Part shown: positions 28,486-50,832 of the stretch, in pieces
Layout of the letters: every line of letters starts with the position of its first letter
Numbering within the stretch: the stretch's first letter is position 1
Origin: Carallia brachiata
Lineage: Eukaryota > Streptophyta > Magnoliopsida > Malpighiales > Rhizophoraceae
Length of the DNA: 64,000 nt
Assembly: GCA_021464245.1 (NCBI GenBank)
Contig: JADCRB010000038.1
Coordinates: forward strand, 3,088,320-3,152,319
Direction of reading: 5' to 3'
The notes under the pieces: generated by a model
Database searches by the model: none
The model's input: the letters and a program-made list of their open reading frames with translations, nothing else
Told to the model about the DNA's origin: nothing
Position numbers and translations under genes: made by a program

Positions 28486-29146
28486 TTAGAACAAATACAC
28501 CGGAAATCGTGGTGTCTTCGGTGGCTTTGCAGGCTTCATAATAAGCTTCTCTGTTCGGGGCGGCTCACATGGACATGGCAATGCTATGAACCTTGGAATT
28601 TGTTCTCCAGGCATCAATACTGGCATGCTTTGGCCTTGTTTTTGCTTCAAGTCCTATAAATATATGAAATAGCCAAAGGAAATCGTCATTTATAATTATA
28701 TTCAACGCAAAGACTCATTTTTTTTTTCCCTTTTGCAAGTTTGATAAAAATTTGGAAAAAGATAAATAGATGGACGATCATTTTGAGCAAATCTTCTGTC
28801 GAGATTTGTGGAATAAAAAACGATGTCAGCATGAAATCATTATTCTATCTGAGTTATGGTTAAATCGTCCTGCCAACGCTCCAAAATCTTTTTGGGGTTT
28901 GGAGAAATTAGTTACCGTTTCTGCTGACTTGGACTTGGGCGACGATGATGCTTCAATGTCTTCCTCAGGAATTGGGTCTTCGAAGAAAGACCTACGGAAT
29001 GACCTGAGCTTGTCCCAGTGGTAGACGCAGAAGAAAATGCCACCGAGGCTGAAGATGAAGATCAAGAGGAGGGCGGTGCCAAGAGGGAATCCAAGGGAAG
29101 GCCTAGATGCATCCACGTGGGGCGGCGAGAAATCTGGACTCTCCAT
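28486..29146 (-). CDS. small proline-rich membrane protein, At5g65660-like (copy A)
   Basis: Two exons on the minus strand: 29,146-28,916 and 28,653-28,486, with a GT-AG intron between. The product is 132 aa starting MESPDFSPPHVDASRPSLGF. An upstream in-frame Met at 29,170 is possible, but the family starts near MESP. Residues about 20-42 are one hydrophobic membrane segment, followed by YHWDKLRSFRRSFF, an acidic patch (EDPIPEEDIE) and a Ser/Lys stretch. Exon 2 gives MPVLMPGEQIPRFIALPCPC, then a Pro/Lys-rich tail ending FPVYLF. From memory, Arabidopsis At5g65660 has the same order and is labelled hydroxyproline-rich glycoprotein family; its biochemical role is unknown to me. The relative is close to bHLH93 in Arabidopsis, so synteny supports the call. 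No lesion was seen. Confidence 0.88.
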
Positions 29147-29417
29147 TGCGCAGACTAATTCCGGCAGCACTAGCCCCTTCTCTCATGTGTTACAAGAGGA
29201 AGAAAAAGGAGAACCAAAAAAAAAAAAAAAAGACAAAAGGGGGTCTAGTGTACAAAACTTTCACACTTGAAGGTTTGATGAATGATCGAATGAAAATAGA
29301 AGGGAGAAAAAAGCAAATGAAAATGGGAGAAAGGAGAGAAAAACAGAACAGAGAAGCTAAAAGAGAGTGTTGAGAAAATCAGGCTTTCGGGCAGCCAGCA
29401 CGAGGTGGTGTTTGGGG

Positions 29418-29427
29418 GTATATATTA
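29418..29427 (-). promoter_or_regulatory. TATA-like box of copy A membrane-protein gene
   Basis: On the minus strand the sequence reads aatatataccc about 275 bp before the ATG at 29,146. A pyrimidine-rich leader lies between. The matching site in unit B (about 58,386-58,394) is weaker (atgtatat). Confidence 0.45.
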
Positions 29428-30065
29428 AAAAAAAAAAAATTGAGGGAGAAGATAGAGTACGCGTAAAGGTACACCAAAATGTCTCGGCTAATGTACGGAA
29501 GAAAGAGTAGGGTCCATTCGCCAGTTGTAGGCGTCAGCTGCCCAAATATATCGGTGTTATATTATTAACACTTTTTTTTATTTATTAGTTTTTGCACGTT
29601 AATTTTTTTTTTTCAAATGATAAAGACTTAAAACTTTATTTTTGACACATTTTTGTTCTGATTAATACGAAATTTTAAATTTTAATTTTAAAATGTAGGT
29701 AAAGAATTTGTGAGAATGGGAAAATTTGACTTCTTAATAAAAAAAAAAAAAAATAAAGAGATAGTTAATATAATAGATGGAAAAACATAAGTAATGAGAG
29801 ATTTACAGGAAGTGTAGCAAAATGTTTTTTTTTTTTTTTTTTTTAAGACTCAATAATAGCTGGTATAGATAGAAATAAGCTTTCAACTGGTTAAATTTGA
29901 AAGTCTAACATCAACTCCCTTTTTCATCGTTCTCTATTCCCAATTACTGGTTAGTAACTCTCAAAAATTATATAAAAAAAAAAAAACAGAGGTTGCTCTT
30001 TTTTTCTGTCCTGAATTTTGGTTTTTCTTTTCTGTTACGCGTAGAAAGCGTTTCAACTCTCAACA

Positions 30066-30223
30066 CGCCCACTACTCTTGAAGCTTGTCCTGTGACAAAT
30101 TGCGCTTCTGTTTATATTGCTTTCCCGTTTCAAGCACGGCTTTTGGCAATTGGTTTGGCCCCGGAGCAGGAATTTCAAGATACAACATAGGATTGGCTAC
30201 AGCATTCAATGGAATGGAGAAGT
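30066..30223. other. block conserved between duplicates, possible exon
   Basis: The segment from cccactactcttgaagc to the LTR insertion is nearly identical to 59,529-59,688 (I see two mismatches in the first 120 bp), while flanking DNA differs much more. A plus-strand frame through both copies encodes TTLEACPVTNCASVYIAF and onward. I do not recognise it; it stops after ...EFQDTT in copy A but continues in copy B. It could be an exon relic, a non-coding RNA or a recently converted tract. Confidence 0.35.
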
Positions 30224-30228
30224 GTCCT
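30224..30228. repeat. target site duplication, left, of LTR element copy 1
   Basis: gtcct here pairs with gtctt at 37,597-37,601. The empty site in unit B at 59,689-59,693 reads gtctt, so the left copy has mutated by one base. Confidence 0.8.
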
Positions 30229-30272
30229 TGTAAACATCATTTTCAAAGAAAAAAAAAAAAAAAGTCAAAATT

Positions 30273-30302
30273 GGCGTTGCCGATTTCAAAGTCGGCAACG
30301 CC
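30273..30302. promoter_or_regulatory. LTR hairpin 1 (11-bp perfect stem)
   Basis: GGCGTTGCCGA, eight-base loop, TCGGCAACGCC. Conserved in the 3' LTR (36,830-36,859) and in the 3' LTR of copy 2 (about 41,975-42,004). One arm has drifted in the 5' LTR of copy 2. Located in U3, about 70 bp upstream of the TATA box. Confidence 0.8.
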
Positions 30303-30336
30303 AACTTTAAAAAATATTTTCAATTTAAAAGATTCA

Positions 30337-30363
30337 TTTCCCATGTGATGTTCACATGGGAAA
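30337..30363. promoter_or_regulatory. LTR hairpin 2 (12-bp perfect stem, 3-nt loop)
   Basis: TTTCCCATGTGA, tgt, TCACATGGGAAA, ending about 8 bp before the TATA box. Both half sites contain a CACATGGG/CCCATGTG word that could bind E-box-type factors. Present in both LTRs of copy 1 and the 3' LTR of copy 2; eroded in the 5' LTR of copy 2. Confidence 0.75.
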
Positions 30364-30370
30364 GTAACCC

Positions 30371-30378
30371 TATAAATA
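30371..30378 (+). promoter_or_regulatory. LTR TATA box
   Basis: tataaata inside a GC-richer context (accctataaataggcccc), the typical form of an LTR promoter. The matching site in the 3' LTR is 36,928-36,935. Confidence 0.8.
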
Positions 30379-31049
30379 GGCCCCTGCCCCTCAGTTCAAA
30401 AGACATTCAATAAATCTGTAAATAGAAAAATTCAGAGAATTTGAGAGAAAAAGAAAATTTTGAAAATCTCTCAAGAAAATTTCTCCTTTTCTTACGTGCT
30501 TTTACTCTGCAGTATACTCTCCTAACTCTTTTTTGAGAGATATTTCAGGGGTAAGGCCCAAAAAATTTGCTGTTTCCATTTCTAAAGTTATTTTTAAATT
30601 TATATTATCGGATCGCTCTAGATCTGATTTCTTTTCTGAGAATATAGATCTAAAAATATCAAATTACTACAAATCCGGCTGGGATTAAGCCTCATACGGC
30701 CCTCAGCAAAATCCAGGCAGCTCATCCGAGAACAAGTCTCTTCGACCCTCGGTGAAATTAAGTCAGATCGGCTCAGATCAGCTCTCTGCGGTTCGTAAAC
30801 GTAGTCAAAAATATCCAAATCAGATACAGTTTCAGTCTATCCAGTTCAAGGAAAATCTGTGGAAATTATTTCTGTCAAGATCAAGCTCGTGCAGCCCTTG
30901 ACGGAGTCCAAAAAGGAACACTAATCGGAGGATCTACGGAGATCGACCCCACGTAAATTTTCTTTTACTTTACAATTTTTATTTGTAATTTATTTTTGTA
31001 TTTTCGAGTTTAATTGTTTTAGACTCGAAATTTACGCTTTACAAATTTT

Positions 31050-31067
31050 TGGCACGCTCGGTGGGAC
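31050..31067 (+). other. primer binding site of copy 1
   Basis: tggcacgctcggtgggac begins six bases after the 5' LTR end, with the TGG expected to pair with a tRNA CCA end. The same site in copy 2 (about 50,811-50,826, minus) reads with one difference. I cannot name the primer tRNA. Confidence 0.65.
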
Positions 31068-31094
31068 ATCTTCACTTCCCATCTCTTGTTCCTT

Positions 31095-31275
31095 AAAAAA
31101 AAAAAAAAAGAGGTAAAAGGGGAGCCGAGAGAAAAAAAAAAGTAAAAAAAAAAGTAAAAGTAAAAAGTAAAAAAAAAAGTAAAAAGTAAAAAAAAGTAAA
31201 AAAAAGTTAAAAGTAAAAAAAAGTAAAAGTAAAAAAGTAAAAAAAAAAGTAAAAAAAAAAGTTAAAAAAAAAAAA
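31095..31275 (+). repeat. A-rich (GTAAAA)n leader before gag
   Basis: Irregular tandem array of aaaagta units between the primer binding site and the gag ATG at 31,308. The same array precedes gag in copy 2 (50,636-50,790), so it is an old part of the leader. The minus-strand Phe/Leu-rich frame is a shadow. Confidence 0.85.
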
Positions 31276-31307
31276 GAAAATTTCCTGTAGGTATCCAGCT
31301 TCATCAA

Positions 31308-32092
31308 ATGGCACTAAAGAAAAGTACAACCGAGGGTACCAATAAGAAGGCAACTGTTCCATTGCCTGCATCAACTACCCTACTCGGGTACACGGGCCCA
31401 CAAACCCGTGGACGGACACAGTTCCTTGACACTCAGATGAGTCCACAGACTCGCGCAAGAACAAAGTTCCTCGCCACCAACAAAGTTAAAATTGAGGACT
31501 TGCGGCTCACACAGCAGTTAGATTTCTCACGTGACTCTGTCACTAAACAGAGGAGTCGATCACCTACCCCTACCGAAGTTAGGGGTAGAGCATCAAATTC
31601 TGCCCAACAGCAAAATCCGACCTATTCTGCACAAACGAACACAGAGGAAGAAGAAGATCCCTCTACTCCAGTCTTCTATAGAGCATCAAATTCTGCTGAA
31701 CAGCAAAATCCAACGCGTTGTGCTGAAACAAGTCAGGAAGATCCGACGGGCCCTCTACAACAGTCTTCCGTGGAGAACCATCTACCGCTGCTGATGTCAG
31801 GCTGACCAACACCACCAGAATAGAAAAAAAGTTTGTAGATTTAAACCGCGGATATTCACAGCTGATTAGCGGATATGCACAGTTGATTGAAAATATGAAG
31901 GAATTAAGACAGCAAATAGATGACGTCAACAAAGGGCTTCACCAAGCCCAACCCGCTGATGCAGTCAACCGCGAAGATCGTCCTCAATCATCTCGATTTG
32001 GGGGCACAGTTTTTAGCCAATCGAACCAACAGAAGGACGAGAGTACCGACTCAGCCACAAGCTCATTTCCAAGTGGCCTGCCCGAAAGATGA
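31308..32092 (+). pseudogene. gag N-terminal remnant, copy 1
   Basis: An ATG frame at 31,308-31,805 begins MALKKSTTEGTNKKATVPLP and resembles the gag start of copy 2 (MAPKRSTTAATKKKATAPLP). It then breaks, and a second frame (31,883-32,092) continues with a short coiled-coil-like stretch. The Retrotrans_gag core and zinc-binding region seen in copy 2 are absent. Near 32,074 the sequence jumps directly into reverse transcriptase (ggcctgcccgaaagatgac). The protein cannot form normal capsids. Confidence 0.8.
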
Positions 32093-32511
32093 CTTTCCGT
32101 TGCCCATAACGGAGATCACAGTCGATGCAACAACGGGTCACGAAGCATTGTCTTTCATGGATGGTTCTTCAGGCTATAACCAAATCAGAATGGCACCAGA
32201 AGACGAAGAGTTGACAGCATTCCGCACCCCAAAAGATTGTAGAATGTTATGTTGATGACTTAGTTGTAAAGACTAAGAAGCGCAAAGACCACCTCGAGGA
32301 TCTCAAGACAGTGTTCGAAAGACTTCGGAGGCATCAGCTCAAAATGAACCCTCTCAAGTGCGCATTCGGTGTCACATCAGGAAAGTTTCTTGGATTCGTG
32401 GTGCGCCATCGTGGAATCGAAGTTGATCAGTCAAAGGTTGAGGCAATTCAAAAGATGCCTGAACCTAAAAACCTGCACGAGCTGCGAAGTCTACAAGGAA
32501 AGCTGGCTTAG
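32074..32511 (+). pseudogene. reverse transcriptase remnant, copy 1
   Basis: Begins mid-domain at CPKDDFPLPITE and continues through SFMDGSSGYNQIRMAPEDEE. A deletion of about 98 nt near 32,237 (relative to copy 2, ends sharing aag) removes the IYCYKVMPFGLKNAGATYQR block and shifts the frame. The catalytic YVDD and the following KTKKRKDHLEDL are still encoded just downstream in another frame, and the last part (MFERLRRHQLKMNPLKCAFG) runs at 32,311-32,511 to a stop. It is inactive. The missing N-terminal third is part of the 3-kb deletion. Confidence 0.88.
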
Positions 32512-32562
32512 ATTCGCCGTTTTATCTACAATTTAGTTAGGAGATGTCAACCTTTCCATCGG

Positions 32563-33382
32563 TTGATGAAGAAGGATGGCAACTTCGAGTGGGACGAAGC
32601 TTGCAGCAAAGCCTTTGAGAGCATAAAGAAGTACCTTTCCAATCCACCGGTCCTAGGTGCTCCAATTCAAGGAAAGTCATTGATTCTCTACATTGCAGCG
32701 CATGAAAGATCTTTGGGAGCCTTGCTTGCACAGGAAAACGAGCAGGGAAAGGAAGTTGCCCTGTACTACTTGAGCAGAACACTAAACGGTCCGGAGCTGA
32801 GTTATTCGCCCATTGAAAAGACATGTCTAGCACTGTTCTTTGCCATTGACAAGCTAAGGCACTACATGCAGGCTCACACGGTACGTCTCATTGCTAGAGC
32901 TGATCCTGTCAAATATATCTTATCTAGACCAATCTTGTCAGGACGACTTGCCAAGTGGGCAGTAATCCTACAAAGCTATGACATTGTCTACGTGCCTCAA
33001 AAAGCAGTCAAAGGACAAGCTCTAGCAGACTTCCTTGCAGATCACCTTGTTCCGTCAGATTGGGAGTTCACAGACGATCTTCCAGATGAAGAGGTCTTTT
33101 ATATTGAGACACTGCCACCATGGACGATGTTCTTTGATGGTGCAGCAAGGCGTGATGGTGCTGGTGCCGGCATAGTGTTTGTCACTCCTCAACGACAAAT
33201 ACTACCATATGCTATCATTCTCGATTCCAACTATAGAAGTCCATGGAGATTCCCAGCTCGTCATCAACCAACTTACAGGATTGTATGACGTGAAGAAAGA
33301 GGACCTTGCGCCTTACCATCAACGTGCTCGACAGCTAATGGATGAATTTGAAAGCATCACCTTGGAGCATGTGCCTCGATGA
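32563..33382 (+). pseudogene. RNase H and second RNase H remnant, copy 1
   Basis: The frame at 32,563-33,288 carries the degenerate Tat-type first RNase H (LILYIAAHERSLGALLAQE, with no canonical first Asp), the connection region and the start of the second RNase H (TMFFDGAARRDGAGAG). A deletion of about 85 nt near 33,223 relative to copy 2 removes the NVAEYQALIIGLQ segment with its catalytic Glu and shifts the frame. The remainder (IEVHGDSQLVINQL) runs at 33,179-33,382 to a TGA that replaces an Arg codon. Two RNase H domains in tandem mark the Tat lineage. Confidence 0.88.
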
Positions 33383-33403
33383 GAAAACACTCTGGCAGAC
33401 GCG

Positions 33404-34793
33404 TTGGCTAACCTGGTTACTTCTCTTGCAAAGTCAGAAATCCAGGCTACAGTTGTTGCCGTATGCCAGAAATGGATAGTGCCACAAAAGGATGATGAAG
33501 AAACTACAGCAGCCAACGCCGTATCTGTACGTCTCGCGGAGGACGAGGATTGGCGCCAACCAATCATTGACTACCTACAGCACGGGAAGCTGCCCGAAGA
33601 TCGTCGTCATAAGACAGAAATTCAACGACGAGCTCCCCGCTTCATATATCTCAAGGATGCTCTGTATCGAAGGTCTTTTGATGGAGTTCTACTTCGCTGC
33701 CTAGCCAATGAAGAGGCAAAACAGGCTCTCACTGAAGCACATTCTGGTGTTTGTGGCGGACATCAATCGGGGCCTAAGTTGCACTTCCAACTCAGAAGGA
33801 TGGGATACTACTGGCCAACTATGGTACGTGATTCAATTGAGTTTGCTAAAACTTGTCAAGCTTGTCAATTTCATGCGAATTACATACATCAACCACCGGA
33901 GCCACTGCATCCAACTGTCTCATCCTGGCCCTTTGAAGCTTGGGGTCTCGACTTAGTGGGGCCCTTGCCAAAGTCATCCCTAGGTCACCTGTACATCCTC
34001 GCAGCAACAGACTACTTCTCAAAATGGGCCGAAGCCATTCCACTTAGAGAGGTAAAGAAGGAGCATGTTGCCAATTTCATCCGGACTCAGCTGATCTATC
34101 GCTATGGAGTCCCTCGATTCATCATCACTGATAATGGCAAGCAGTTCTACAACAGCTTGATCGACAAGCTCTGCGAGAAGTTCAAGTTCAAGCAGTACAA
34201 GTCATCCATGTACAATGCCCCAGCAAATGGCTTGGCCGAAGCATTCAACAAGACCTTATGCAACCTGTTGCGGAAGGTAGTCTCTAAATCCAAAAGAGAT
34301 TGGCATGACAGAATTCCGGAGGCATTATGGGCGTATCGTACAACTTACCGGACTCCAACACAGGCGACGCCATACTCACTTGTCTACGGTGTCGAAGCAA
34401 TACTGCCGTTGGAAACACAGATTCCATCTCTGCGCATGGCGGTTCTGGAAGGACTCACACAGGAGGAGAATGCTCGCCTACGTCTGGATGAGTTAGAAGC
34501 TCTCGATGAAAGGAGGCTCGAAGCACAACAGCAACTTGAGTGCTACCAAGCCCGGCTCACCAACACGTTCAACCGCAGGGTCCGCCCTCGATCTTTTCAA
34601 GTTGGACCTTGTTCTTGCAGTGCGACGGCCCATCAACATGAAGCATCGGCCTGGTGACAAGCTTACTTCCAAATGGGACGGGCCATACTTAGTGCAGGAG
34701 GCCTACACTCACAACGCTTACATACTGTCAGACCAAGAAGGCGTCCGAATCGGCCCAATCAATGGTAAATTTCTGAAACAATATTATGTGTAA
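33404..34793 (+). pseudogene. integrase, copy 1 (nearly intact, C-terminal frameshift)
   Basis: The frame at 33,404-34,657 holds the zinc-binding HHCC (AHSGVCGGHQSG and KTCQACQ), then the catalytic triad: Asp in WGLDLVGPLPKS, Asp in FIITDNGKQF and Glu in NGLAEAFNKTL. After SFQVG a 2-nt loss relative to copy 2 (ggacc for ggagacc, near 34,607) shifts the frame. The C-terminal DLVLAVRRPINMKHRPGDKL to FLKQYYV is encoded in the overlapping frame ending at 34,793. The core looks intact, but upstream lesions remove the polyprotein context. Confidence 0.92.
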
Positions 34794-34799
34794 ATATAT

Positions 34800-34802
34800 T
34801 TG

Positions 34803-34833
<31 letters not shown>

Positions 34834-35115
34834 AAAAAAAAAGAAGAAAAAAACAAAAAAATCAAAAAAAAAAGAAAAAAAAATCAAAAAATCAAAAAAA
34901 TCAAAAAAAAAAAAAAAAGTTCGGAAGTCCCGATCTGAAAGTCCAAGCGAAAATCCAAATCCAAAATCCAAACCCAAACACTTGAGCCCAATTCAGAAAA
35001 CACAAAACCTAAGTCCAAAACCCAAACACTCAACCCAAATTCAATTCAAAGCCCAAAACCCAAAAAATTCCAAGTTCCAAACACAGTCCAGAAACCAAGT
35101 TCAAAATCCAATCCA
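34800..35115 (+). repeat. low-complexity linker between integrase and WOX gene
   Basis: First an A-rich (tcaaaaaa)n-type run (34,803-34,920), then a C/A-rich tract of cccaaaa, aatccaaat and cccaaacac phrases to about 35,110. Copy 2 has the same two-part linker at 43,845-44,155. It separates pol from the captured gene and could contain the pol 3' UTR. The frames across it are not genes. Confidence 0.85.
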
Positions 35116-35157
35116 ACTCCTGGCCCGCATGAGTATAAACTGTGAACGGCCCAAAAA

Positions 35158-35165
35158 TATAAAAG
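35158..35165 (+). promoter_or_regulatory. TATA box of the element-borne WOX gene
   Basis: tataaaag lies 95 bp before the WOX ATG, in gcccaaaaatataaaagcg, followed by a plausible short leader (ctcagcatcagtctcaatcg). In copy 2 the site has lost two bases (aaaaataaaagaacgg). This suggests the captured gene has, or had, its own promoter separate from the LTR. Confidence 0.6.
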
Positions 35166-35252
35166 CGACGGAGGGTTTGAGTCTGAAACTCAGCATCAGT
35201 CTCAATCGATCTTCACCACACACCAGACCTTTGCTCCTCTGCCACAAGAAAG

Positions 35253-35609
35253 ATGGAACCAGTTGCAGAACCTCAAGAAAAGGGAGAAGAAAGGTCACCC
35301 CGCACAAGGTGGCAACCAACCATGGCGCAACTGCAAATTCTAGAGGAAGTCTTCCACAACAATGGAGGTATTATGCCTAATGCATCTCAGATTTACCAAC
35401 TTGTCTCACGATTGCGCCCACTCGGGGCAATCGAAGGAAAAAATGTGTTTTATTGGTTCCAGAATCGGAGAAGCAGGAAGAAACCAGCACTGAGAGCTGA
35501 TTTTTCCAAAGAACAGTCTGCTGTTCCGATGGTAGATCCCACCGTACAACTTCGCCGTCAAATGAAGCAGGTCCGAGTTCTACCACTACAATGTCTCTCC
35601 ACGGTATAA
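35253..35609 (+). pseudogene. WUSCHEL-type homeodomain gene captured by LTR element copy 1 (3' frameshift)
   Basis: The 118-codon frame starts MEPVAEPQEKGEERSP. Residues 18-79 are a WOX homeodomain: TRWQPT at the start of helix 1, an extended helix 1-helix 2 region, then IEGKNVFYWFQNRRSRKK as helix 3, the family's hallmark. The frame is lost near 35,545, where one base is missing relative to copy 2, and it ends at an out-of-frame stop. In the other frame downstream, copy 1 still encodes a WUS-box TLPLFP (35,737-35,754), and further on LDLEL (35,826-35,840) in an EAR-like context. Homeodomain, then WUS-box, then EAR is the order in WUS-clade proteins. The gene lies in sense orientation between integrase and polypurine tract and shows no intron. 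As it stands it would give a truncated nuclear DNA-binding protein without the repressor motifs. Confidence 0.9.
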
Positions 35610-35875
35610 CATCAAAGCCGTAGCCCATGAGCATGCACGCTGGTCCTGGTGGTCTTACGTCAGCCAAGGGTTCATCCCTCCTAAATACTTAAGTCTAGGA
35701 GGAATTTTTCTAGCAGAAAGGAGTCATTCCGGCGAAACTTTGCCTCTCTTTCCAGAATATTCCGGCAGCATCAACCAGCTGGAAAGCGACGTCAACATCA
35801 CATCGGCCCACCAGACGAGGTCGAGCTTGACTTGGAGCTTGCCCGGGCCCCGCTAGGACGGCCGACAAGATAAGG
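35610..35875 (+). pseudogene. out-of-frame C-terminal part of the copy 1 WOX gene
   Basis: Continues the captured gene after the frameshift. It holds the WUS-box codons at 35,737-35,754 (TLPLFPEYS context) and, after a further 2-nt difference from copy 2 near 35,793, the LDLEL codons at 35,826-35,840. Three separate small indels distinguish the two element copies over this segment. WUS-box and EAR motifs recruit TOPLESS-type co-repressors in cellular WUS proteins. Confidence 0.8.
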
Positions 35876-35955
35876 TGCAACGACTTTGGCAGCACACGGT
35901 AACGACTTCTGCAGCACACGGCAACGACTTCTGCAGCACACGGCAACGACTTTCG
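35876..35955 (+). repeat. tandem array, unit about 21-22 bp
   Basis: About four units of the type acgactt(ctg)cagcacacgg(ca), directly after the WOX gene. Copy 2 has the same array with different unit lengths at about 42,990-43,070. It may be part of the WOX 3' UTR. Confidence 0.85.
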
Positions 35956-36146
35956 TGACACGCGTCAGCCGCTGCCTCTTTTGTCTCTTATGCAGGAAAG
36001 GGACGTGGATGGCCCTACTCGAATCTGCATACTTCTTTTTGACTTTTCAAAAAAAAAAAAAAAAAAACCCTTTATCGCATGTATATATATATATCTTGCA
36101 TTCCCGAGTTATAACTCACCCCTCAGCTCTTCTTTCTCAAAAGAAA

Positions 36147-36224
36147 ATGGCTAGTCTCTGCACTTGTCTCAGGAAGTTCTTCGATCAAGAAGTTGGAGGC
36201 GCACGAGCTAAGAAAAGAAGGTAG
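36147..36224 (+). CDS. small ORF MASLCTC..., copy 1 (25 aa)
   Basis: MASLCTCLRKFFDQEVGG and onward, ending in a Lys/Arg-rich tail. It is preceded by a TATA-like run (gtatatatatatatcttgc, about 36,078-36,096) and a leader with a good ATG context (aagaaaATGGCT). Copy 2 encodes the same first 13 residues and then differs because of a 1-nt indel. Conservation in both elements and its own TATA-like run suggest a real short gene or a fragment of a second captured gene. No family recognised. Confidence 0.4.
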   Translation: MASLCTCLRKFFDQEVGGARAKKRR

Positions 36225-36425
36225 TCTTCCTGGGATCCCTAACGCCATCGGTGTCATGGAGTTCCAACTACTCTCCTTAGTTCACATCTACTACAGAGGG
36301 ATGAGACGCTGCAATTATCCTAATCTTCCTTTGGATGCCGCGATGTACGGGGAAGTTCCAACTACTCTCCTTACGTCGAAGCAGACTTAGGAATCATCAC
36401 TACAGTCAGTCTCTCTGTGCGCAGG

Positions 36426-36518
36426 TCTTAAAGTTCCAAAGTGCTGGGCCTTCCTCTTGGGGAGGTTCAAGTTCTTTGCCTACCGGATCATCCTCACCAG
36501 AGCTCTGGAACTTTAAGA
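36426..36518. repeat. inverted repeat in the 3' non-coding region of copy 1
   Basis: Arms tcttaaagttcca (36,426-36,438) and tggaactttaaga (36,506-36,518) are perfect complements with about 67 bp between. The same pair is present in copy 2 (about 42,415-42,510). It could form a stem in the element RNA. Confidence 0.7.
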
Positions 36519-36768
36519 GATATAAAAAATCCTTTGCGGGCTATGGAAGCTCGAATGCACCTGGAGCCAGAAGGTCAATTTTTATATTGGCTGGGCTGCT
36601 AACTTTCTCAAGATCGTATCGGGTTCCTATTGCGATCCAACAACAGCAGACATGGTCAAAGATAGAAGACTCCAAAGATTCAATGTTCATCAGGACGTTT
36701 CCAAGTTTCAAACTGGACTTCAAGACTCGGTGCGGATCATTTCTGTAAAAATCTTCCTTACCGACCCT

Positions 36769-36783
36769 TGAAGTGGGGGCATT
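36769..36783 (+). other. polypurine tract of copy 1
   Basis: tgaagtgggggcatt immediately before the 3' LTR (TGTAAAC). The purine core gaagtggggg would prime plus-strand synthesis. Conserved in copy 2. Confidence 0.75.
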
Positions 36784-37596
36784 TGTAAACATCATTTTCA
36801 AAGAAAAAAAAAAAAGAAAAGTCAAAATTGGCGTTGCCGATTTCAAAGTCGGCAACGCCAACTTTGAAAAATATTTTCAATTTAAAAGATTCCTTTCCCA
36901 TGTGATGTTCACATGGGAAAGTAACCCTATAAATAGGCCCCTGCCCCTCAGTTCAAAAGACATTCAGCAAATCTGTAAACAGAAAAATTCAGAGAATTTG
37001 AGAGAAAAAGAAAATTTTGAAAATCTCTCAAGAAAATTTCTCCTTTTCTTACGTGCTTTTACTCTGCAGTATACTCTCCTAACTCTTTTTTGAGAGATAT
37101 TTCAGGGGTAAGGCCCAAAAAATTTGATGTTTCCATTTTTAAAGTTATTTTTAAATTTATATTCTCGGATCGCTGTAGATCTGAATTTCTGAGAATATAG
37201 ATCTAAAAATATCAAATTACTACAAATCCGGCTGGGATTAAGCCTCATACGGCCCTCAGTAAAATCCAGACAGCTCATCCGAGAACAAGTCTCTTCGACC
37301 CTCGGTGAAATTAAGTCAGATCGGCTCATATCAGCTCTCTGCGGTTCGTAAACGTAGTCAAAAATATCCAAATCAGATACAGTTTCAGTCTATCCAGTTC
37401 AAGGAAAATCTGTGAAAATTATTTCTGTCAAGATCAAGCTCGTGCAGCCCTTGACGGAGTCAAAAAAGGAACACTAATCGGAGGATCTACGGAGATCGAC
37501 CCCACGTAAATTTTCTTTTACTTTACAATTTTTATTTATAATTTATTTTTATATTTTCGAGTTTAATTGTTTTAGACTCAAAATTTACGCTTTACA
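36784..37596 (+). repeat. 3' LTR of copy 1
   Basis: 813 bp, TGTAAACATC...GCTTTACA, with the same hairpins and TATA box as the 5' LTR. About 19 differences from it by eye. Followed by the target duplication gtctt. Confidence 0.95.
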
Positions 37597-37695
37597 GTCT
37601 TTGGTGGATTCTTTCTTGCATAAGCTTTTAATTGGGAATTCCTTCCATGAATTAGGCAAGGACGCGGAGTGTCTTCAACTACTGTTAGGCACTAA

Positions 37696-37885
37696 CTAAA
37701 AATAAAAAATAGTATAATAATAATGATATTATAATTGATAAAAAGTAATAATTAAAAAGTTGTGAAAAAAAAAATAATAATTTATGAGAAAAAAATAAAA
37801 AATAATTATTTAAATTAATAAAAAATAAATAAATATATATATATTTTTTCCTTTTTTTTTTCCTTTGAAAATTTTCAATCACAGG
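37696..37885. mobile_element. MITE-like element, TGTTTGG family, copy 2 of 3
   Basis: The AT-rich segment with gatattataattgataaaaag, ending in a C/T-rich run and gaaaattttcaatcacagg, closely matches 59,325-59,515 and more loosely 24,818-25,063. Unit B lacks it at the matching place (59,790-59,800, gcactagcttgcattaaagg). The ends are eroded; no coding capacity. Confidence 0.55.
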
Positions 37886-40228
37886 ATAAAGGTTTTGCCT
37901 ACTTAAGTGGCTGGATGTCACAGAATCGACCAAGGAGTGGTGACAAAACTTGTCAGTGTTTAGATTATCTCAAGGGTGGTGTGGATTCTGCACCGAGCTT
38001 AAATCTGGACTGTGCCTCCAGGTACTATTAAAAAATACAACTGTCTAATTTTTTAGTGTAATCATATAAAAAATTTGAAATAAAAAATTACAAAATTAAA
38101 ATTTAAAATTAAATAAATATTATTCAAGAACTTAAAATATGAATCTCACATAATATACATTAAGATAAAAAAATTCTTTAAAAAAAAAACCTAAAAGAAT
38201 CAGCACCGTTATGCCGAAAAATGCAACTTTGGTAGTGCCAATTCCGGCGCAAAAACACTATCGTTAACTCAATAAAAAAAAAAATTGAAGGCAGCACTGC
38301 ATTAACATATGAAAAGCACATAATAAATCTAATAATATCTCTATTTTTTTAATTTTAATATATTTTTTTATATCTAATAATTTAAATTTCACGTGCTAAA
38401 AAAACAATAATGAGCTATACATTTTACTTTACACTTAAAGACTTACTCCACACAACTTATTTTGAGGTGATTTAAAATAACCTTATCAGATTTAATGTCA
38501 TGAGCCTTGGTTTAAAATTTGAACTCAAGAAATTATTTAAGCATCATATTGCAACATAGGAATTTGTTAGTAATTGTTATTTTTTATTTTTTTTATAGTC
38601 TTCATATGTGGCACGTATTGATTAATTATTAAAAAAAAAAATTAAATATATTATAATTTTATTAAAAATATTAGTATACTAATTTTTAATTAATAATTAT
38701 AAAAAAATAAAAAAACTATCTATAACTTTTATAACATAATATGTTACTAGGTAATTTGCCGACCACTTTTTATTTTATCAGAATACTTGCCAACTACTTT
38801 GAGAGCTATTTGGCCACTCTTTTCAACTAAAAAGAGGAAAGAAGAAACAAAAAAGGAGAATCCAAATGTCCACAAAGAGAAGTAACATATGGAGAAAAGT
38901 GATCCGTAAAAAATAATAATATGGAGAAAAGTGATCATGGATCGTACTACTGTATCCGTAATGTTTTAACCTGAAGTCAACATTTTTCCCGTCGCTTATA
39001 CTTTATAACTAAGACAGTGGCTAAGGAAAAAAAAATTAGTTACATAATTTAATTTTAAATAATAATAAAATAATTTAATAATTTATTTAATAATATTTAA
39101 TAATTTATTTATTTTTTTCTTATTCAAATTTTAATCGTCCGAAACTCATACCACTTTATTATTATTTTGTTACTATATAAATATTATTAATTAATATTTT
39201 TCTTTAAAAAAAAACAATAGAACTAAAGCACAAAAACTTTGAGTTACCGTTTTAAGAACATGTGATTTCTCAATGGTCAATAATTATGATCGATTCCTGC
39301 GAGCTATCTTAGAAGAAATGCCGTGTGGGATTCAAATTACAAGAGAATTCATTTTTCTTTAGACAAAGCCTCCCTCAGCTAAATACTTAGAGAAAATTAA
39401 AAAAAAAAAGTAGTTCATTCCCTCAATTTAATACTCGGATGACTATTTTTGGGTAACTTAGCAACGGATCCGTGGCCTTGGCAGGCCAAAAATGATAAAA
39501 CGTTTCACTAAAATATAACCTGCACTCACATAATGGGGCTCTTCTTGAAATATTGGTTCAATTAGGCTGTATAGGATTTGAGGTTTCATGGATTACAGAT
39601 TTCCAAGGAAAATACTGCAAACTGTAAGCTCTCTCTGCCTTTGGTCCTTGACCTAGCCAGCAACAGCTGAATCCAAGCTGCAAAATCACAGAGCAACATC
39701 CCAAGTCATTTTCACATCTTTCTGGTGCTTTATGCTTGTCCCAGTCCAATGGACCAAAATGACAGTGTCTCATTTGTTTAGAAGCGTTAAGATTTATTGG
39801 GTCAACATTCTTTTATAAACTATATCACCTTCATTCCCTTATATCAGTGTTACATATGTTCCTCTTATTTTTAGGTCATAAAAATAAAAAAGTATAAATA
39901 ATATTCTACAGTCATGCTAGAAGTTACGTATATCTTCTTGTGGTTCATATTTGAAATTGCAAATGGTCATTTCCCTCCCACATCTGAATTTTTACCAAAT
40001 GGCTTTGCGGGCCAACGACCAATTAGTCCCCCTGAATTACAAATAGAAGTTGTCAAACTATTCCTTTGTTTCTTGAACCAGTGAGTTCGTGAACTATACC
40101 ACACGTTTGGCAACCGACTCATCAAAAACGATTGCATGTTTGGTTGATCAAAAAATAAAAAAACAAAATTCATACACATTTTGGCTTACTCGCTCATATG
40201 ATTGCGGATGGAACAGTCTTCCCATTCA
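37886..40228. other. unit A right part, non-coding
   Basis: Matches 59,800-61,617. No exon recognised. The stretch 39,586-39,890 is unusually well conserved against 61,010-61,315, while most of the rest differs by many substitutions and indels. Confidence 0.5.
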
Positions 40229-40530
40229 CTTTCCATCAACTGATATATTGATTTGAAACAAAATTGAAAGATTTAATATTTAAATGTAAATAGGTATAAA
40301 AGTTTAGAATTAAAAAAAAATTTATATTCCTTTTGTTAGCAAGATTAATAGACATTGGTTCTCATATTTTGTTCTTTGAACATAAAGTTAAAGTTCACCC
40401 CGTTAATGTACTAAAGTTCATTGCAAAGCGAAGATTTTAAGCACGTTCCTTTCAAGTACTTAATTAATGGTGTTAACGAAGAAACAAAGTGCAATTTGAA
40501 CTTTCCCACGGATCCTGGTTTCCAATATTC

Positions 40531-40730
40531 TTTTTTTTTTTTTTTATCTTTGATCAGGGTATCCACCGTCGATCACGATAATTAATCCCCTCGCTGATTT
40601 GCAGGCACCTCGAAAAGTGGGACAGCTGGCTCAAGGTTTTAAAGTTGCTCCATATTCAAAGTCAGAAATCGAATCCCTGACCTTTAGTTAAGGATGGAGG
40701 AGTCCTTTCCACTGAACCACGCCCTTTGAT
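40531..40730 (-). mobile_element. tRNA-derived SINE
   Basis: About 200 bp, read on the minus strand: starts atcaaagggcgtggttcagtgg (A-box-like), contains ggtcagggattcgatttc (B-box-like) and ends in an A tail (T run at 40,531-40,545). A target duplication of about 15 bp, (t)ctggtttccaatattc / tctggttttaatattc, flanks it. Unit A has the empty site at about 19,215-19,230. This is a full set of SINE hallmarks. No protein is encoded. Confidence 0.85.
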
Positions 40731-41227
40731 TCTGGTTTTAATATTCTATTGCTCATTAATTCGGCATGGTTTTAGTTCCAGCTTAGATCCAACTTCTTTT
40801 CACATTGAGCAGAGCAGCTGGTCATCAATAAAGTGAAGCAGATTCCATTGGTTATTGAACGAGATCATCGTATTAATATTGGAATGGCATTTTATCAACA
40901 ATAATAATAGGAAATCACACATTTTATTTTACATTTGTTTTTCCTGAGGTTTATTTTGGGACGTCCTCTCAAAATTAAGGGTCCTCCCTCAAAAATAATT
41001 TTATATGAAACGAGTGTAGGGTAAAAAGTGTTGTTCTGACAGATCTTTGGGCACTACTACAGCATCAAAGGATTTTGTTCGAAAATAATGATAATTGTAA
41101 AAATTGAGAACGTCATTATATTTAGATAAAATTTTAAAATATATTTTTTTTTGTTGTAATATTTTCCTAAATCTTTTATGAAAGCAAAGTTGCATGCTAA
41201 CATCAGCATCCACTGATGGGATAAGAC

Positions 41228-42039
41228 TATAAAGCGTAAATTTCGAGTTTAAAATAATTAAACTCGAAAATACAAAAATAAATTACAAATTAAAAGTTGT
41301 AAAAATAAAAGAAAATTTACGTGGTTCGATCTCCGTAGATCCTCCGATTAGTGTTCCTCTTTTTTGACTCCGTCAAGGGATGCACGAGCTTGATTTTGAC
41401 AGAAATAAATTCCACAACTTTTTCTTGAATTGGGTAAACTGAAACCGGATCTGATTTGGACGTTTTGACTACAGTTAAGGACCGCAAATACCAAATCTGA
41501 GCTGATTTGGTTTAATTTCACCGAGAGTCGAAGGAACTTATTCTCGGATGAGTTGCCTGGATTTTGCTGAGGGCCGTATGAGACTTAATCTCAGCCGAAT
41601 TTGAAGTAATTTGATATTTTCAGATCTATATTCTCATAAATTCAGATCTACAGCGATCGGAGAATATAAATCTAAAACTAACTTTAGAAATGGAAACAGC
41701 AAATTTTTTGGGGCTTACCCCTGAAATATCTCTCAAAAAGGAGTTAGGAGAGTATACTGCAGAATAAAAGCACGTAAGAAAAGGAGAAATTTTCTTGAGA
41801 GATTTTTAAAATTTTTCTTTTTCTCTCAAATTCTCTGGATTTTTCTGTTTACAGATTTGCTGAATATCTTTTGAACTGAGGGGTAGGGGCCTATTTATAG
41901 GGTTCCTTTCCCATGTGAACATCACATGGGAAAGGAATCTTTTAATTAATTTATTTTTTTTTTTCAAAGTTGGTTGGCGTTGCCGACTTCAAAGTCGGCA
42001 ACGCCAATTTTGACTTTTTTTTTTCTTTCTTCATTTACA
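41228..42039 (-). repeat. 3' LTR of copy 2
   Basis: 812 bp. The outer end reads tataaagcg where TGTAAAGCG is expected, a single change in the terminal CA. Contains hairpins 1 and 2 and the TATA region (about 41,894-41,901, minus). Confidence 0.92.
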
Positions 42040-42211
42040 AATGCCCTCACTTCAAGGGTCGGTAAGGAAGAATTTTACAGTAAAGATCCGAACCGAGTTG
42101 AAGTCGGCAACGCCAATTTTGACTTTTTTTTTTCTTTATTCATTTACAAATGCCCCCACTTCAAGGGTCGGTAAGGAAGAATTTTACAGTAATGATCCGA
42201 ACCGAGTCTTG
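41994..42211 (-). repeat. 109-bp tandem duplication across the LTR/polypurine boundary
   Basis: The unit (gtcggcaacgccaattttgac through the LTR start, polypurine tract and ccgaaccgag) occurs twice, offset by exactly 109 bp. The second LTR start ends at 42,148. The element therefore has two adjacent LTR starts and two polypurine tracts. Confidence 0.9.
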
Positions 42212-42710
42212 AAGTCCAGTTTGAAACTTGAGATGTCTTAATGAACGTTGAATGTTGAAATCTTCTATCTCTGACCATGCCTGCTGTTATTGGATCGCAA
42301 TAGGAACCCGATACGATCTTGAGAAAGTTAGCAGTCCAGCAGCCAATATAAAAATTGACATTCTGACTCCAGGTGCGTTCGAGCTTCCATAGCCCGCAAA
42401 GGATTTTTTATATGTCTTAAAGTTCCAGAGCTCTGGTGAGGATGACCTGGTAGGCAAAGAACTTGAACCTCCTCAAGAGGAAGGCCCAGCACTTTGGAAC
42501 TTTAAGACCTGCGCACAGAGAGACGGGTTATGGTGATGATTCCCGAATCTGCTTCGACGTAAGGAGAGTAGTTGGAACTTCCCTGCACGTCGCTGCATTT
42601 GTAGATCCAGGAGACGATCAGAACTTCTCGCTCGCTGCGATAGATGTGAACTAAGGAGAGTAGTTGGAACTCCATGACACCGATGGCGTTGGAGATGAGT
42701 TTCGAGGGTT

Positions 42711-42809
42711 TTAGGGATCCCTCGAGAAGACTACTCCTTCTTTTCTTAGCTCGTGCGCCTCCAACTTCTTATCGAAGAACTTCCTGAGACAAGTGCAGAG
42801 ACTAGCCAT
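42711..42809 (-). CDS. small ORF MASLCTC..., copy 2 (32 aa)
   Basis: Starts MASLCTCLRKFFDKKLEAHE and ends ...SRDP. The start and first 13 residues match copy 1, as does the upstream leader. A longer open frame runs upstream to 43,070 without a supporting start. Possible second captured gene fragment; function unknown. Confidence 0.4.
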   Translation of the reverse strand: MASLCTCLRKFFDKKLEAHELRKEGVVFSRDP

Positions 42810-42989
42810 TTTCTTTTGAGAAAGAAGAGCTGAGGGGTGAGTATACAACTCGGGAATGCAATATAATATACATACGATAAAGTTTTTTTTTTTTTTTGAA
42901 AAGTCAAAAAGAAGGTACGCAGATCGAGTAGGGTCATCCACGTCCCTTTCCTGCATAAGAGACAAAAGAGGCAGCGGCTGACGCGTGTC

Positions 42990-43070
42990 ACGAAAGTCGT
43001 TACCGTGTGTTGCAGAAGTCGTTGCCGTGTGCTGCAAAGTCGTTACCGTGTGCTGCCAAAGTCGTTGCAC
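42990..43070 (-). repeat. tandem array, unit about 20 bp, copy 2
   Basis: Units of the type gtcgt(t)accgtgtgctgc, the complement of the array at 35,876-35,955 in copy 1. Located just 3' of the WOX gene. Confidence 0.8.
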
Positions 43071-43696
43071 CTTATCTTGTCGGCCGTCCTAGCGGGGCCC
43101 AGGCGCAGCTCCAAGTCAAGCTCGACCTCGTCTGGTGGGCCGATGATGTTGACGTCGCTTTCCGGCTGGTTGATGCTGCCGGAATATTCTGAAAGAGAGG
43201 CAAAGTTTCGCCGGAATGATCCTTTCTGCTAGAAAAATTCCTCCTAGACTTAAGTATCTAGGAGGGATGAACCCTTGGCTGACTCCGTAAGACCACCAGG
43301 ACCAGCATGCATGCTCCCATGGGCTACGGCTTTGATGAACATACCGTGGAGAGACCATTGCAGTGGAAGAACTCGGACCTGCTTCATTTGAGGGCGAAGC
43401 TGTACCAGTGGGATTTACTATCGGAACGACAGACTGTTCTTTGGAAGAAGCAGTTCTCAGTGCTGGTTTCTTCCTGCTTCTCCGATTCTGGAACCAATAA
43501 AACACATTTTTTCCTTCGATTGCCCCGAGCGGGCGCAATCGTGAGACAAGTTGGTAAATTTGAGATGCACTAGGAATAATACCTCCATTGTTGTGGAAGA
43601 CTTCCTCCAAAATTTGCAGTTTGCCATGGTCGGTTGCCACCTTGTGCGGGGTGACCTTTCTTCTCCCTTGTCTTGAGGTTCTGCAACTGGTTCCAT
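43040..43696 (-). pseudogene. WUSCHEL-type homeodomain gene captured by LTR element copy 2 (frameshifted)
   Basis: ATG at 43,696 (MEPVAEPQDKGEERSP). One base is missing relative to copy 1 near 43,624 (ggcaaactg for ggcgcaactg), within helix 1. The rest of the homeodomain (FHNNGGIIPSASQIYQLVSR, then IEGKNVFYWFQNRRSRKK) lies in the frame ending at 43,116. That frame continues past the point where copy 1 breaks, through SNEAGPSSSTAMVSP and WEHACWSWWSY. It shifts again before the WUS-box (TLPLF codons, 43,192-43,206). The EAR-like LDLELRL codons are at 43,100-43,120. Only two residue changes separate the two homeodomains apart from the frameshift site, and the recognition helix is identical. The lesions differ between the copies, so each broke independently. 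Confidence 0.9.
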
Positions 43697-43844
43697 CTTT
43701 CTTGTGGCAGAGGAGCAAAGGTCTTGGTATGTGGTGAAGATCGGTTGAGACTGATGCTGAGTTTCAGACTCAAACCCTCCGTTCTTTTATTTTTGGGCCG
43801 TTCACAGTTTATACTCATGCGGGTCAGGAGTTGGATTGGATTTT

Positions 43845-44155
43845 GAACTTAGGTTTTGGATTGTGTCTGGAACTTGGAATTTTTGGGTTTTGGGTTTTGG
43901 ATTGGATTTGGGTCGAGTGTTTGAGCTTCTAGACTTGGATTTTTGGATTTGGGTCGAGTGTTTGGGTTTTGGACTTGGACTTTTGGATTTGGGTTGGTGT
44001 TTGGACTTGTTTTTGGGTTTGGGTTTTCGCTTGAACTTTCAGATCGGGACTTCCAACTTTTTTTTTTTTTTTTTTTTTTTATTTTTTTTTATTTTTTTTT
44101 TGATTTTTTTTTCTTTTTTTTTTTTTTATTTTTTTTTTAAAACATATTTACACAT
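43845..44155 (-). repeat. low-complexity linker, copy 2
   Basis: T-rich run (44,060-44,140) and G/T-rich ttttgggtttgg phrases, the complement of the linker at 34,800-35,115. Plus-strand Phe/Leu/Gly frames across it are artefacts. Confidence 0.85.
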
Positions 44156-44163
44156 AATACTGT

Positions 44164-45410
44164 TTCAGAAATTTACCATTGATCGGGCCGATTCGGACGC
44201 CTTCTTGGTCTGACAGCATGTAAGCGTTGTGAGTGTAGGCCTCCTGCACTAAGTATGGCCCGTCCCATTTGGAAGTAAGCTTGTCACCAGGCCGATGCTT
44301 CATGTTGATGGGCCGTCGCACTGCAAGAACAAGGTCTCCAACTTGAAAAGATCGAGGGCGGACCCTGCGGTTGAACGTGTTGGTGAGCCGGGCTTGGTAG
44401 CACTCAAGTTGCTGTTGTGCTTCGAGCCTCCTTTCATCGAGGCTTCTAACTCATCCAGACGTAGGCGAGCATTCTCCTCCTGTGTGAGTCCTTCCAGAAC
44501 AGCCATGCGCAGGGATGGAATCTGTGTTTCCAACGGCAGTATTGCTTCGACACCGTAGACAAGTGAGTATGGCGTCGCCTGTGTTGGAGTCCGGTAAGTT
44601 GTACGATACGCCCATAATGCCTCCGGAATTCTGTCATGCCAATCTCTTTTGGATTTAGAGACTACCTTCCGCAACAGGTTGCATAAGGTCTTGTTGAATG
44701 CTTCAGCCAAGCCATTTGCTGGGGCATTGTACATGGATGACTTGTACTGCTTGAACTTGAACTTCTCGCAGAGCTTGTCGATTAAGCTGTTGTAGAACTG
44801 CTTACCATTATCAGTGATGATGAATCGAGGGACTCCATAGCGATAGATCAGCTGAGTCCGGATGAAATTGGCAACATGCTCTTCTTTACCTCTCTAAGTG
44901 GAATGGCTTCAGCCCATTTTGAGAAGTAGTCGGTTGCTGCGAGGATGTACAGGTGACCCAGGGATGACTTTGGCAAGGGCCCCACTAAGTCGAGACCCCA
45001 AGCTTCAAAGGGCCAGGATGAGACAGTTGGATGCAGTGGCTCCGGTGGTTGATGTATGTAATTGGCATGAAATTGACAAGCTTGACAAGTTTTAGCAAAC
45101 TCAATTGAATCACGTACCATAGTTGGCCAGTAGTATCCCATCCTTCTGAGTTGGAAGTGCAACTTAGGCCCGATTGATGTCCGCCACAAACACCAGAATG
45201 TGCTTCAGTGAGAGCCTGTTTTGCCTCTTCATTGCCTAGGCAACGAAGTAAAACTCCATCAAAAGACCTTCGATACAGAGCATCCTTGAGATATATGAAG
45301 CGGGGAGCTCGTCGTTGAATTTCTGTCTTATGACGACGATCTTCAGGCAGCTTCCCGTGCTGTAGATAGTCAATGATTGGTTGGCGCCAATCTTCGTCCT
45401 CCGCGAGACG
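44164..45410 (-). pseudogene. integrase, copy 2 (frameshifted)
   Basis: Three overlapping frames (45,695-44,985, 45,189-44,848, 44,734-44,300) together cover the integrase seen in copy 1: HHCC zinc region, Asp of WGLDLVGPL, Asp of ITDNGKQF, Glu of NGLAEAFNKTL, then the C-terminal part to 44,164. Single-base losses relative to copy 1 occur near 45,172 (one g of ggggcc), near 44,880 (one g of aaggag) and near 44,440. All catalytic residues are still encoded but not in one frame. Confidence 0.9.
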
Positions 45411-46470
45411 TATAGATACAGCGTTGGCTGCTGTAGTTTCTTCATCATCCTTCTGCGGCACTATCCATTTCTGGCATACGGCAACAACTGTAGCCTGGAT
45501 TTCTGACTTTGCAAGAGAAGTGGCCAGGTTAGCCAACGCGTCTGCCTGAGTGTTTTCTCGTCGAGGCACATGCTCCAAGGTGATGCTTTCAAATTCATCC
45601 ATTAGCTGTCGAGCACGTTGATGGTAAGGCGCAAGGTCCTCTTTCTTACACATACAATCCTGTAAGTTGGTTGATGACGAGCTGGGAATCTCCATGGACT
45701 TCTATAGTTGGAATCTTCATATCGACAGCCATTTGAAGACCAATGATCAAAGCCTGGTATTCAGCAACATTATTTGAACATAACTCACCGAGAATGATAG
45801 CATATGGTAGTATTTGTCGTTGAGGAGTGACAAACACTATGCCGGCACCAGCACCATCACGCCTTGCTGCACCATCAAAGAACATCGTCCATGGTGGCAG
45901 TGTCTCAATGTAAAAGACCTCTTCATCTGGAAGATCATCTGTGAACTCCCAATCTGACGGAACAGGGTGATCTGCAAGGAAGTCTGCTAGAGCTTGTCCT
46001 TTGACTGCTTTTTGAGGCACGTAGACAATGTCGTAGCTTTGTAGGATTACTGCCCACTTGGCAAGTCGTCCTGACAAGATTGGTCTAGATAAGATATATT
46101 TGACAGGATCAGCTCTGGCAATGAGACGTACCGTGTGAGCTTGCATGTAGTGCCTCAGCTTGTCAATGGCAAAGAACAGTGCTAGACATGTCTTTTCAAT
46201 GGGCGAATAACTCAGCTCCGGACCGTTTAGTGTTCTGCTCAAGTATACAGGGCAACTTCCTTTCCCTGCTCATTTTCCTGTGCAAGCAAGGCTCCCAAAG
46301 ATCTTTCCTGCGCTGCAATGTAGAGAATCAACGACTTTCCTTGAATTGGAGCACCTAGGACGGTGGATTGGAAAGGTACTTCTTTATGCTCTCAAAGGCT
46401 TTGCTGCAAGCTTCGTCCCACTCGAAGTTGACATCCTTCTTCATCAACCGATGGAAAGGTTGACATCTCC
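45410..46470 (-). pseudogene. RNase H and second RNase H, copy 2
   Basis: The frame at 46,242-45,646 holds the end of the degenerate first RNase H, the connection (VPQKAVKGQALADFLADHP) and the second RNase H with Asp in MFFDGAARR, Glu in NVAEYQAL and Asp in VHGDSQLV. The last Asp (TQADALANL) lies in the frame that starts near 45,695. The catalytic quartet is therefore complete but spread over two frames. The N-terminal part up to 46,470 is also shifted. Confidence 0.88.
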
Positions 46471-46473
46471 CAG

Positions 46474-47874: not shown

Positions 47875-47881
47875 AACCGGC

Positions 47882-48620: not shown

Positions 48621-48666
48621 TACATACAGCGGCCGATTGTGGGGTTTGGACCCCAGCAGGAGATCC

Positions 48667-50004: not shown

Positions 50005-50024
50005 TTGTTGAACAGATAGCGAAG

Positions 50025-50612: not shown

Positions 50613-50635
50613 TTGATGTGCTGAACACCTGTAAA

Positions 50636-50790: not shown

Positions 50791-50832
50791 GTGATGGGAG
50801 GTGAAGATGTCTCACCGAGCGTGCCAAAAATT

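Follow-up and report, generated by a model that had tools for sequence, protein, structure and literature searches.

Two LTR retrotransposons of a single family, lying in the 64,000-nucleotide stretch of Carallia brachiata DNA analysed here (the window), each hold a host-type gene that sits within the LTRs and moved with the element, the arrangement of a gene-capturing LTR retrotransposon. The original prediction held that an ancestor of this retrotransposon had captured a WUSCHEL-type host gene and carried it through transposition. Sequence comparison leaves this view well supported, because the gene displays WUSCHEL-diagnostic features, occupies the matching position in two separate insertions, and is accompanied by two empty sites, one for each element.

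Structure and insertion of the two elements

The features of the two elements, in window coordinates, are the following.

Element 1
30224-30228: target duplication, left copy, GTCCT
30229-37596, plus strand: element 1, a Tat-type Ty3/gypsy retrotransposon with an internal deletion and the WUS-type gene inside, recognised by its LTR pair, primer-binding-site region and polypurine tract
30229-31043, plus strand: 5' LTR
31049-31063, plus strand: candidate primer-binding-site region
32512-33285, plus strand: RNase H region (PF17919 and PF17917, domain matches at 32563-33288)
33404-34657, plus strand: integrase (PF17921, PF00665)
35131-35252, plus strand: leader 5' of the WUS-type gene, with a TATA-like TATAAAAG
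35253 to about 35902, plus strand: WUS-type gene, start at 35253, with the motifs other than the homeodomain in other frames
35298-35495, plus strand: WUS-type homeodomain, frame intact
35737-35754, plus strand: WUS box TLPLFP, in a frame different from that of the homeodomain
35823-35840, plus strand: EAR-like motif ELDLEL
36766-36783, plus strand: polypurine tract region
36784-37596, plus strand: 3' LTR
37597-37601: target duplication, right copy, GTCTT

Element 2
41223-41227: target duplication, AAGAC
41228-51643, minus strand: element 2, of the same family as element 1 and longer, with gag, reverse transcriptase, RNase H, additional RNase H and integrase
43043-43696, minus strand: WUS-type gene between integrase and 3' LTR, start at 43696, stop at about 43043
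44303-45204, minus strand: integrase pieces in two frames (PF17921, E 1e-5; PF00665, E 7e-4, below its cut-off)
45646-46242, minus strand: RNase H followed by the additional RNase H (RVT_3), the remainder of RVT_3 lying within 44988-45701
46474-47874, minus strand: reverse transcriptase (PF00078)
49423-50142, minus strand: gag (PF03732)
51644-51648: target duplication, other side, TAGAC

Element 1 lacks much of gag, the protease and part of the reverse transcriptase, and its pol ends in a stop at ~34792. Its RNase H and integrase are located 5' of the WUS-type gene and in the same sense, so that the gene lies, as had been predicted, in sense orientation after the integrase and before the polypurine tract. 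The same gene was also expected, and found, at the same internal position of element 2, which runs in the opposite orientation and is 91.5% identical to element 1 across 3702 aligned columns. The assignment to Tat-type elements is likewise supported: Tat lineages of angiosperms are reported to contain an additional RNase H between RNase H and integrase (PMC6317226), and in element 2 RVT_3 follows RT_RNaseH and precedes the integrase. The TATA-like TATAAAAG in the element 1 leader, near 35158, is changed in element 2 and may play a promoter role.

The empty sites of both elements reside in old duplicated (paralogous) blocks of the same 64-kb window. The joined flanks of element 1 align with 59529-59796, where 239 of 268 positions are identical through the junction (~59690) with the target GTCTT, and those of element 2 align around ~20436, with 421 of 559 positions identical through the junction and the target AAGAC; the 2-nt gap at the latter junction arose because the left flank was trimmed at 41224, which falls within the target copy (41223-41227). 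Because these paralogous sites contain neither element, each element, gene included, must have arrived as a single insertion. The target duplications carry one mismatch per pair (GTCCT/GTCTT for element 1, AAGAC/TAGAC for element 2). The prediction that element 2 has its own target duplication and orientation stands with respect to the minus-strand orientation and the separate empty site, the duplication itself being imperfect by one base. A host WOX gene or pseudogene placed by chance between unrelated repeats, which has the proximity of other host genes in its favour and nothing further, is a vanishingly improbable reading, ruled out by two empty sites that each lack the entire unit and opposed by the matching internal position of the gene in two oppositely oriented elements.

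Several other observations concern the elements and their surroundings. Read in element orientation, the target of both insertions is GTCTT, which lies within GTCTTTT at the empty sites (37597-37601/~59690 and 41223-41227/~20436); with n=2 sites, this coincidence is perhaps due to chance, or it may reflect a target preference. The LTR pairs diverge by 2.2% in element 1 (18 of 811 aligned positions) and by 5.9% in element 2 (48 of 808 positions), compared to an integrase dN of 0.5% between the elements. Ages read from the LTRs seem to be too high, which may be explained by gene conversion between the two inverted copies or by template switching. In element 2, a tandem duplication of ~109 nt (41992-42207) covers the polypurine tract together with the first part of the 3' LTR. 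In element 1, the region from the WUS-type gene to the 3' LTR contains a second small sense ORF (MASLCTCLRKFF...) at 36147-36221 on the plus strand, and additional possible coding stretches are located at 36301-36745, with a counterpart in element 2 near 42714-43088; a Pfam search with 36305-36745 and 42714-43088 yielded zero matches. Elsewhere in the window, duplicated blocks with ~75-98% identity occupy 19000-24000, 28500-30200, 37600-41200, 51600-54200 and 57500-61300. An ORF (MESPDFSPPHVDASRPSLGF...) recurs in these blocks at 28829-29182 and 57854-58150, its first copy being without a match in a Pfam search, and a host gene for a bHLH transcription factor that contains an ACT-like domain has exons at 12453-13649 (plus strand).

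Assignment of the gene to the WUSCHEL type

The ORF from which the prediction started, with TRWQPT and IEGKNVFYWFQNRRSRKK, is present on the plus strand at 35253-35609 and encodes 118 amino acids. Its WOX-type homeodomain was recovered as predicted, with a match to the Pfam homeodomain family PF00046 (E 5.1e-13), NVFYWFQN in helix 3, and Arabidopsis WUSCHEL as the best match among solved structures in the PDB (E 7.3e-19). The next PDB match is STENOFOLIA (E 1.4e-16), a protein of the WOX1 type, and those that follow are animal homeodomains with E-values of 0.038 or worse. These matches show that the frame is not open by chance and that it encodes a WOX homeodomain. The element 2 homeodomain also matches PF00046 (E 7.5e-9).

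The position of the gene end, which had been placed at 35609, has to be revised: the stop at 35609 in element 1 comes after a frame break, and the motifs of the gene, a WUS box followed by an EAR-like motif, continue 3' to about 35902. At the matching places, element 2 encodes TLPLF followed by Q, rather than TLPLFP, and ELDLEL. In dinucleotide shuffles of 35541-35880, TLxLFP appeared by chance in 3 of 20000 cases and LxLxL in 3275 of 20000, so the EAR-like motif is weak evidence when considered alone, yet it occupies the position that it has in WUSCHEL. The WUS box and the EAR motif are reported to be repression motifs (PMC6274733). An acidic region was not apparent by eye in the linker between the homeodomain and the WUS box; this region is reported not to be strictly conserved (PMC6274733).

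For comparison, we used as references the best 120 of 3890 protein matches at E <=0.001 (8000 candidates scored), a set without labelled WOX2, WOX4 and WOX5 proteins. The spacer from RWxP[TKS] to NVFYWFQN comprises 40 residues in 28 of these 120 listed WOX proteins and 39 residues in the remaining 92; the element homeodomain belongs to the former class. All 28 spacer-40 references contain the LYYN stretch of WUSCHEL, and although many of them are unnamed, most of the named ones are annotated as WUSCHEL or wuschel-like, with one (P0005) labelled WOX7-like. A one-residue insertion (Tyr54) at the end of helix 1 has been reported to be WUSCHEL-specific within the WOX family (PMC7203112), and the extra residue of the element homeodomain at this position is His, not Tyr. 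A WUS box was recognised in 69 of the 120 listed references (none in the other 51) and has the form TLPLFP in 13 of the 69, all 13 of which have the 40-residue spacer. An LxLxL motif follows the box in 12 of these 13 references and in the single reference with TLSLFP, compared to 1 of the 55 with TLQLFP or TLELFP. In an ungapped alignment, the element homeodomain retains the WUSCHEL base-reading residues R38, Q89, N90 and R94, has Ala at the position of F101, and has Arg at the position of S36, a replacement that in WUSCHEL reportedly increases TAAT binding about six-fold (PMC7203112).

The overall similarity of the homeodomain is less easily interpreted. The mean alignment score was 185 for WUSCHEL-type domains, 168 for WOX3, 161 for WOX1 and 129 for WOX11; the best-scoring WOX3 domain shares 38 identical residues with 3 gap positions, and the best-scoring WUS domain shares 34 in an ungapped alignment. 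In a tree of 80 rows, the long branch of the element sequence emerges between WOX11 and the others, and in a tree of 33 rows, the sequence falls beside WOX11 with values of 79/78, which do not amount to support, and with a risk of long-branch artefact. None of the four constrained groupings was rejected (p-AU of 0.205 for WUS with an Ipomoea protein, 0.383 for WUS, 0.462 for WOX3 and 0.363 for WOX1). The homeodomain tree, with its long branch, therefore fails as a means of placing the gene and does not on its own put it within WOX; the assignment to WUS is based on the discrete features, that is, the spacer, the box and the motifs. The nearest listed proteins are 51% identical over 61% of the query and, in another search, 56% identical over 24%, values that come from protein searches requiring shared five-residue words and from annotations that often mask repeats.

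Selection and decay between the two copies

Across the 65 codons of the homeodomain, the two copies differ by 6 synonymous and 2 non-synonymous changes (dS 0.149, dN 0.013, omega 0.09), and the probability of observing at most 2 non-synonymous changes among 8 under equal rates is 0.0025. When 91 codons are considered (35253-35530), there are 7 synonymous and 7 non-synonymous changes (omega 0.275, P 0.023), and the pieces around the WUS box, of 4 and 14 codons and hence too short to be informative, contain 0 synonymous changes and 1 non-synonymous change; the codon counts leave out 35583-35850, where the homeodomain frame is broken. Between the same two elements, the integrase accumulated 18 synonymous and 4 non-synonymous changes (dS 0.074, dN 0.0047, omega 0.06) and the RNase H region accumulated 9 and 6 (dS 0.058, dN 0.011).

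Low divergence by itself does not demonstrate coding constraint, because the presumably non-coding leader before the gene (4 of 119 positions different) and the segment after it, 35876-36045 (4 of 168), are also little diverged. Between the copies, 24 of 191 positions are changed in the spacer 5' of the gene and 46 of 468 in the segment 36301-36780, and LTRs compared across the two elements diverge by 9.6-11.7%. Given the low divergence beside the gene, the argument for a protein comes from the synonymous bias. Constraint on the homeodomain during the separation of the two lineages is probable, a conclusion drawn from only eight differences, and past selection on this domain is moderately supported.

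These estimates have to be weighed against the possibility that the gene is a passenger, i.e. a WUSCHEL-type retrocopy that was captured accidentally, brings no benefit to the element and is now decaying, which we regard as a serious contender although well short of probable. Such decay would fit the nine frame-breaking indels of 1-2 nt that separate the copies within 623 bp, the 16 differences among the 225 positions of the linker from the homeodomain to the WUS box, and the predominance of non-synonymous changes (5 of 6) where codons beyond the homeodomain were counted. It is not readily reconciled with the low omega of the homeodomain next to a pre-gene spacer that differs at about one position in eight, or with the fact that the homeodomain, the WUS box and the EAR motif are all recognisable despite a very long branch.

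The frame breaks themselves affect both copies, after the open homeodomain in element 1 and within the homeodomain in element 2, where a one-base indel disrupts the frame right after TRWQPTMA and a second break lies 5' of the WUS box. In total, 28 substitutions separate the copies over the 623 bp of 35253-35875, along with 10 indels, of which 9 are 1-2 nt long; the two pol stretches compared have 44 substitutions and 7 indels of 1-2 nt. That these breaks are assembly errors and that at least one of the two genes is really intact, a reading compatible with any of the others, is somewhat unlikely in our estimation. The many frame-breaking indels contrast with the few amino acid changes, 5 of the 9 short indels in the gene occur at homopolymers, and the integrase dN is just 0.0047 despite broken integrase frames, all of which could be attributed to such errors; however, 4 of the 9 gene indels are located away from homopolymers, and element 1 carries a large internal deletion.

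Possible role of the captured gene and comparison with known systems

The reading that we favour, tentatively and at less than even probability, is that an intronless WUSCHEL-type coding sequence was captured long ago and has been retained as an accessory regulator. Under this model, a Tat-type Ty3/gypsy element would have taken up the coding sequence, most likely from spliced mRNA, in sense orientation between the integrase and the 3' LTR, and would have kept it as an accessory regulator of the element. The protein may be, or may have been, produced, perhaps by means of the gene's own leader and TATA box. It would be expected to bind WUSCHEL-type sites and to repress host genes via the WUS box and the EAR motif, and this repression could favour transcription and transposition in meristem cells with germline descendants. 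This proposed action of the element-encoded WUS-type protein is deduced from its motifs.

The absence of an intron between the homeodomain and the WUS-box region of the element gene fits mRNA capture but does not prove it. Each of the 12 physic nut WOX genes (PMC7325900) and each of the nine Dendrobium huoshanense WOX genes (PMC11847974) is reported to have introns. Because no homeobox introns are reported in 73 genes (PMC6274733), only the absence of introns downstream of the homeobox counts in favour of RNA capture, and only weakly. A poly(A) relic of the captured mRNA was considered and rejected: A-runs of 19 and 15 follow the gene copies, yet the elements contain 7 and 5 runs of at least 12 A.

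A more specific version of the favoured reading is doubtful. In it, selection would have maintained in this family a WUSCHEL mimic, with the DNA-binding domain and both repression motifs, that serves to reprogram or enter the stem-cell-like tissue leading to gametes. A cell-fate gene would then have become a transposition factor, comparable to the growth regulators carried by some animal retroviruses. The germ cells of plants are reported to trace back to subepidermal stem cells at the shoot apex, where LTR elements are among those transiently up-regulated (PMC7560203), so that a WUSCHEL mimic could favour the cells leading to the next generation. WUSCHEL is also reported to be involved in excluding RNA viruses from the shoot-apex stem cells (PMC10589665).

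Alternatively, the accessory protein might serve the element directly, through an internal promoter or the choice of integration site, for example, and not act on host cell fate, which we consider decidedly unlikely. The leader and spacer 5' of the gene contain 8 TGAA compared to 4.5 in shuffles (24 of 500 reach 8) and one tandem TGAA (35 of 500 shuffles), weak signals that are two of 18 motif tests, and the two insertions (n=2) share the GTCTTTT target. Speaking against an action of this kind, six WUSCHEL-type patterns (TGAA, TAAT and four others) showed no enrichment in the two LTRs tested of the four, a result that also leaves self-activation via the LTR unsupported, and GTCTTTT is not known to be a WUSCHEL site.

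An element with a WUSCHEL-type regulator would make the germline access of plant elements directly testable. The element gene would further represent a natural WUSCHEL variant with an altered N-terminal arm and helix 3, and element-borne WUS-type genes call for caution in WOX gene censuses.

A search of titles and abstracts in the open-access literature listed no WOX gene in a retrotransposon. The terms homeo*, WUSCHEL and WOX are absent from the main texts of PMC11963269, PMC7264820 and PMC3726574, and homeo* and WUSCHEL from those of PMC6317226 and PMC9289625. No relatives of the gene or of the integrase were confirmed in viral contigs, nor relatives of the integrase in genome contigs. The survey of extra ORFs in PMC6317226 is described as counting ORFs of at least 250 codons, so that a gene of about 217 codons would have been missed.

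Compared to WUSCHEL itself, the element gene is alike in the length of the homeodomain with the helix-1 insertion, the R38/Q89/N90/R94 residues, and a TLPLFP WUS box followed by an EAR-like motif. It differs in that its homeodomain is identical to those of the 28 spacer-40 proteins at 31-33 of 62 residues, helix 3 ends in RRSRKK, His replaces Tyr54 and F101 is gone, as well as in being intronless, in having no acidic region seen by eye, and in being housed in a retrotransposon.

Among the Tat elements, extra ORFs are reported to be common, such as the plant mobile domain that 57% of Ogre elements contain (PMC6317226) and Transposase_28 in Retand (PMC11963269). The present elements resemble them in combining an extra gene outside gag-pol with an additional RNase H between RNase H and integrase, and differ in that the extra gene is a sense homeodomain gene. 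Neither the plant mobile domain nor Transposase_28 was matched among the element ORFs tested, and none of the 5 antisense ORFs tested for a Retand-type Transposase_28 matched Pfam at E 0.1. The features of the Retand sublineage, an antisense ORF and a long region between pol and the 3' LTR, are not seen here, this region spanning about 2 kb in element 1 compared to the 2.9-6.6 kb reported for Retand (PMC11963269).

The retention of a host-type gene by a Gypsy family has a parallel in the AlkB-like (2-ODD) ORF that Phalaenopsis (orchid) Gypsy elements are reported to have acquired, with activity tested in vitro (PMC9289625); there, the product is an RNA demethylase, whereas here it is of a developmental transcription factor type. 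Bs1 and the LTR-captured genes of rice and sorghum similarly consist of host sequence within an LTR element, usually in sense orientation (PMC7264820, PMC3726574). In contrast to these captures, a single gene is present here in two family members that have diverged from each other, and its DNA-binding domain shows signs of constraint. The kind of element is known, and the WUS-type gene that it carries is a new cargo.
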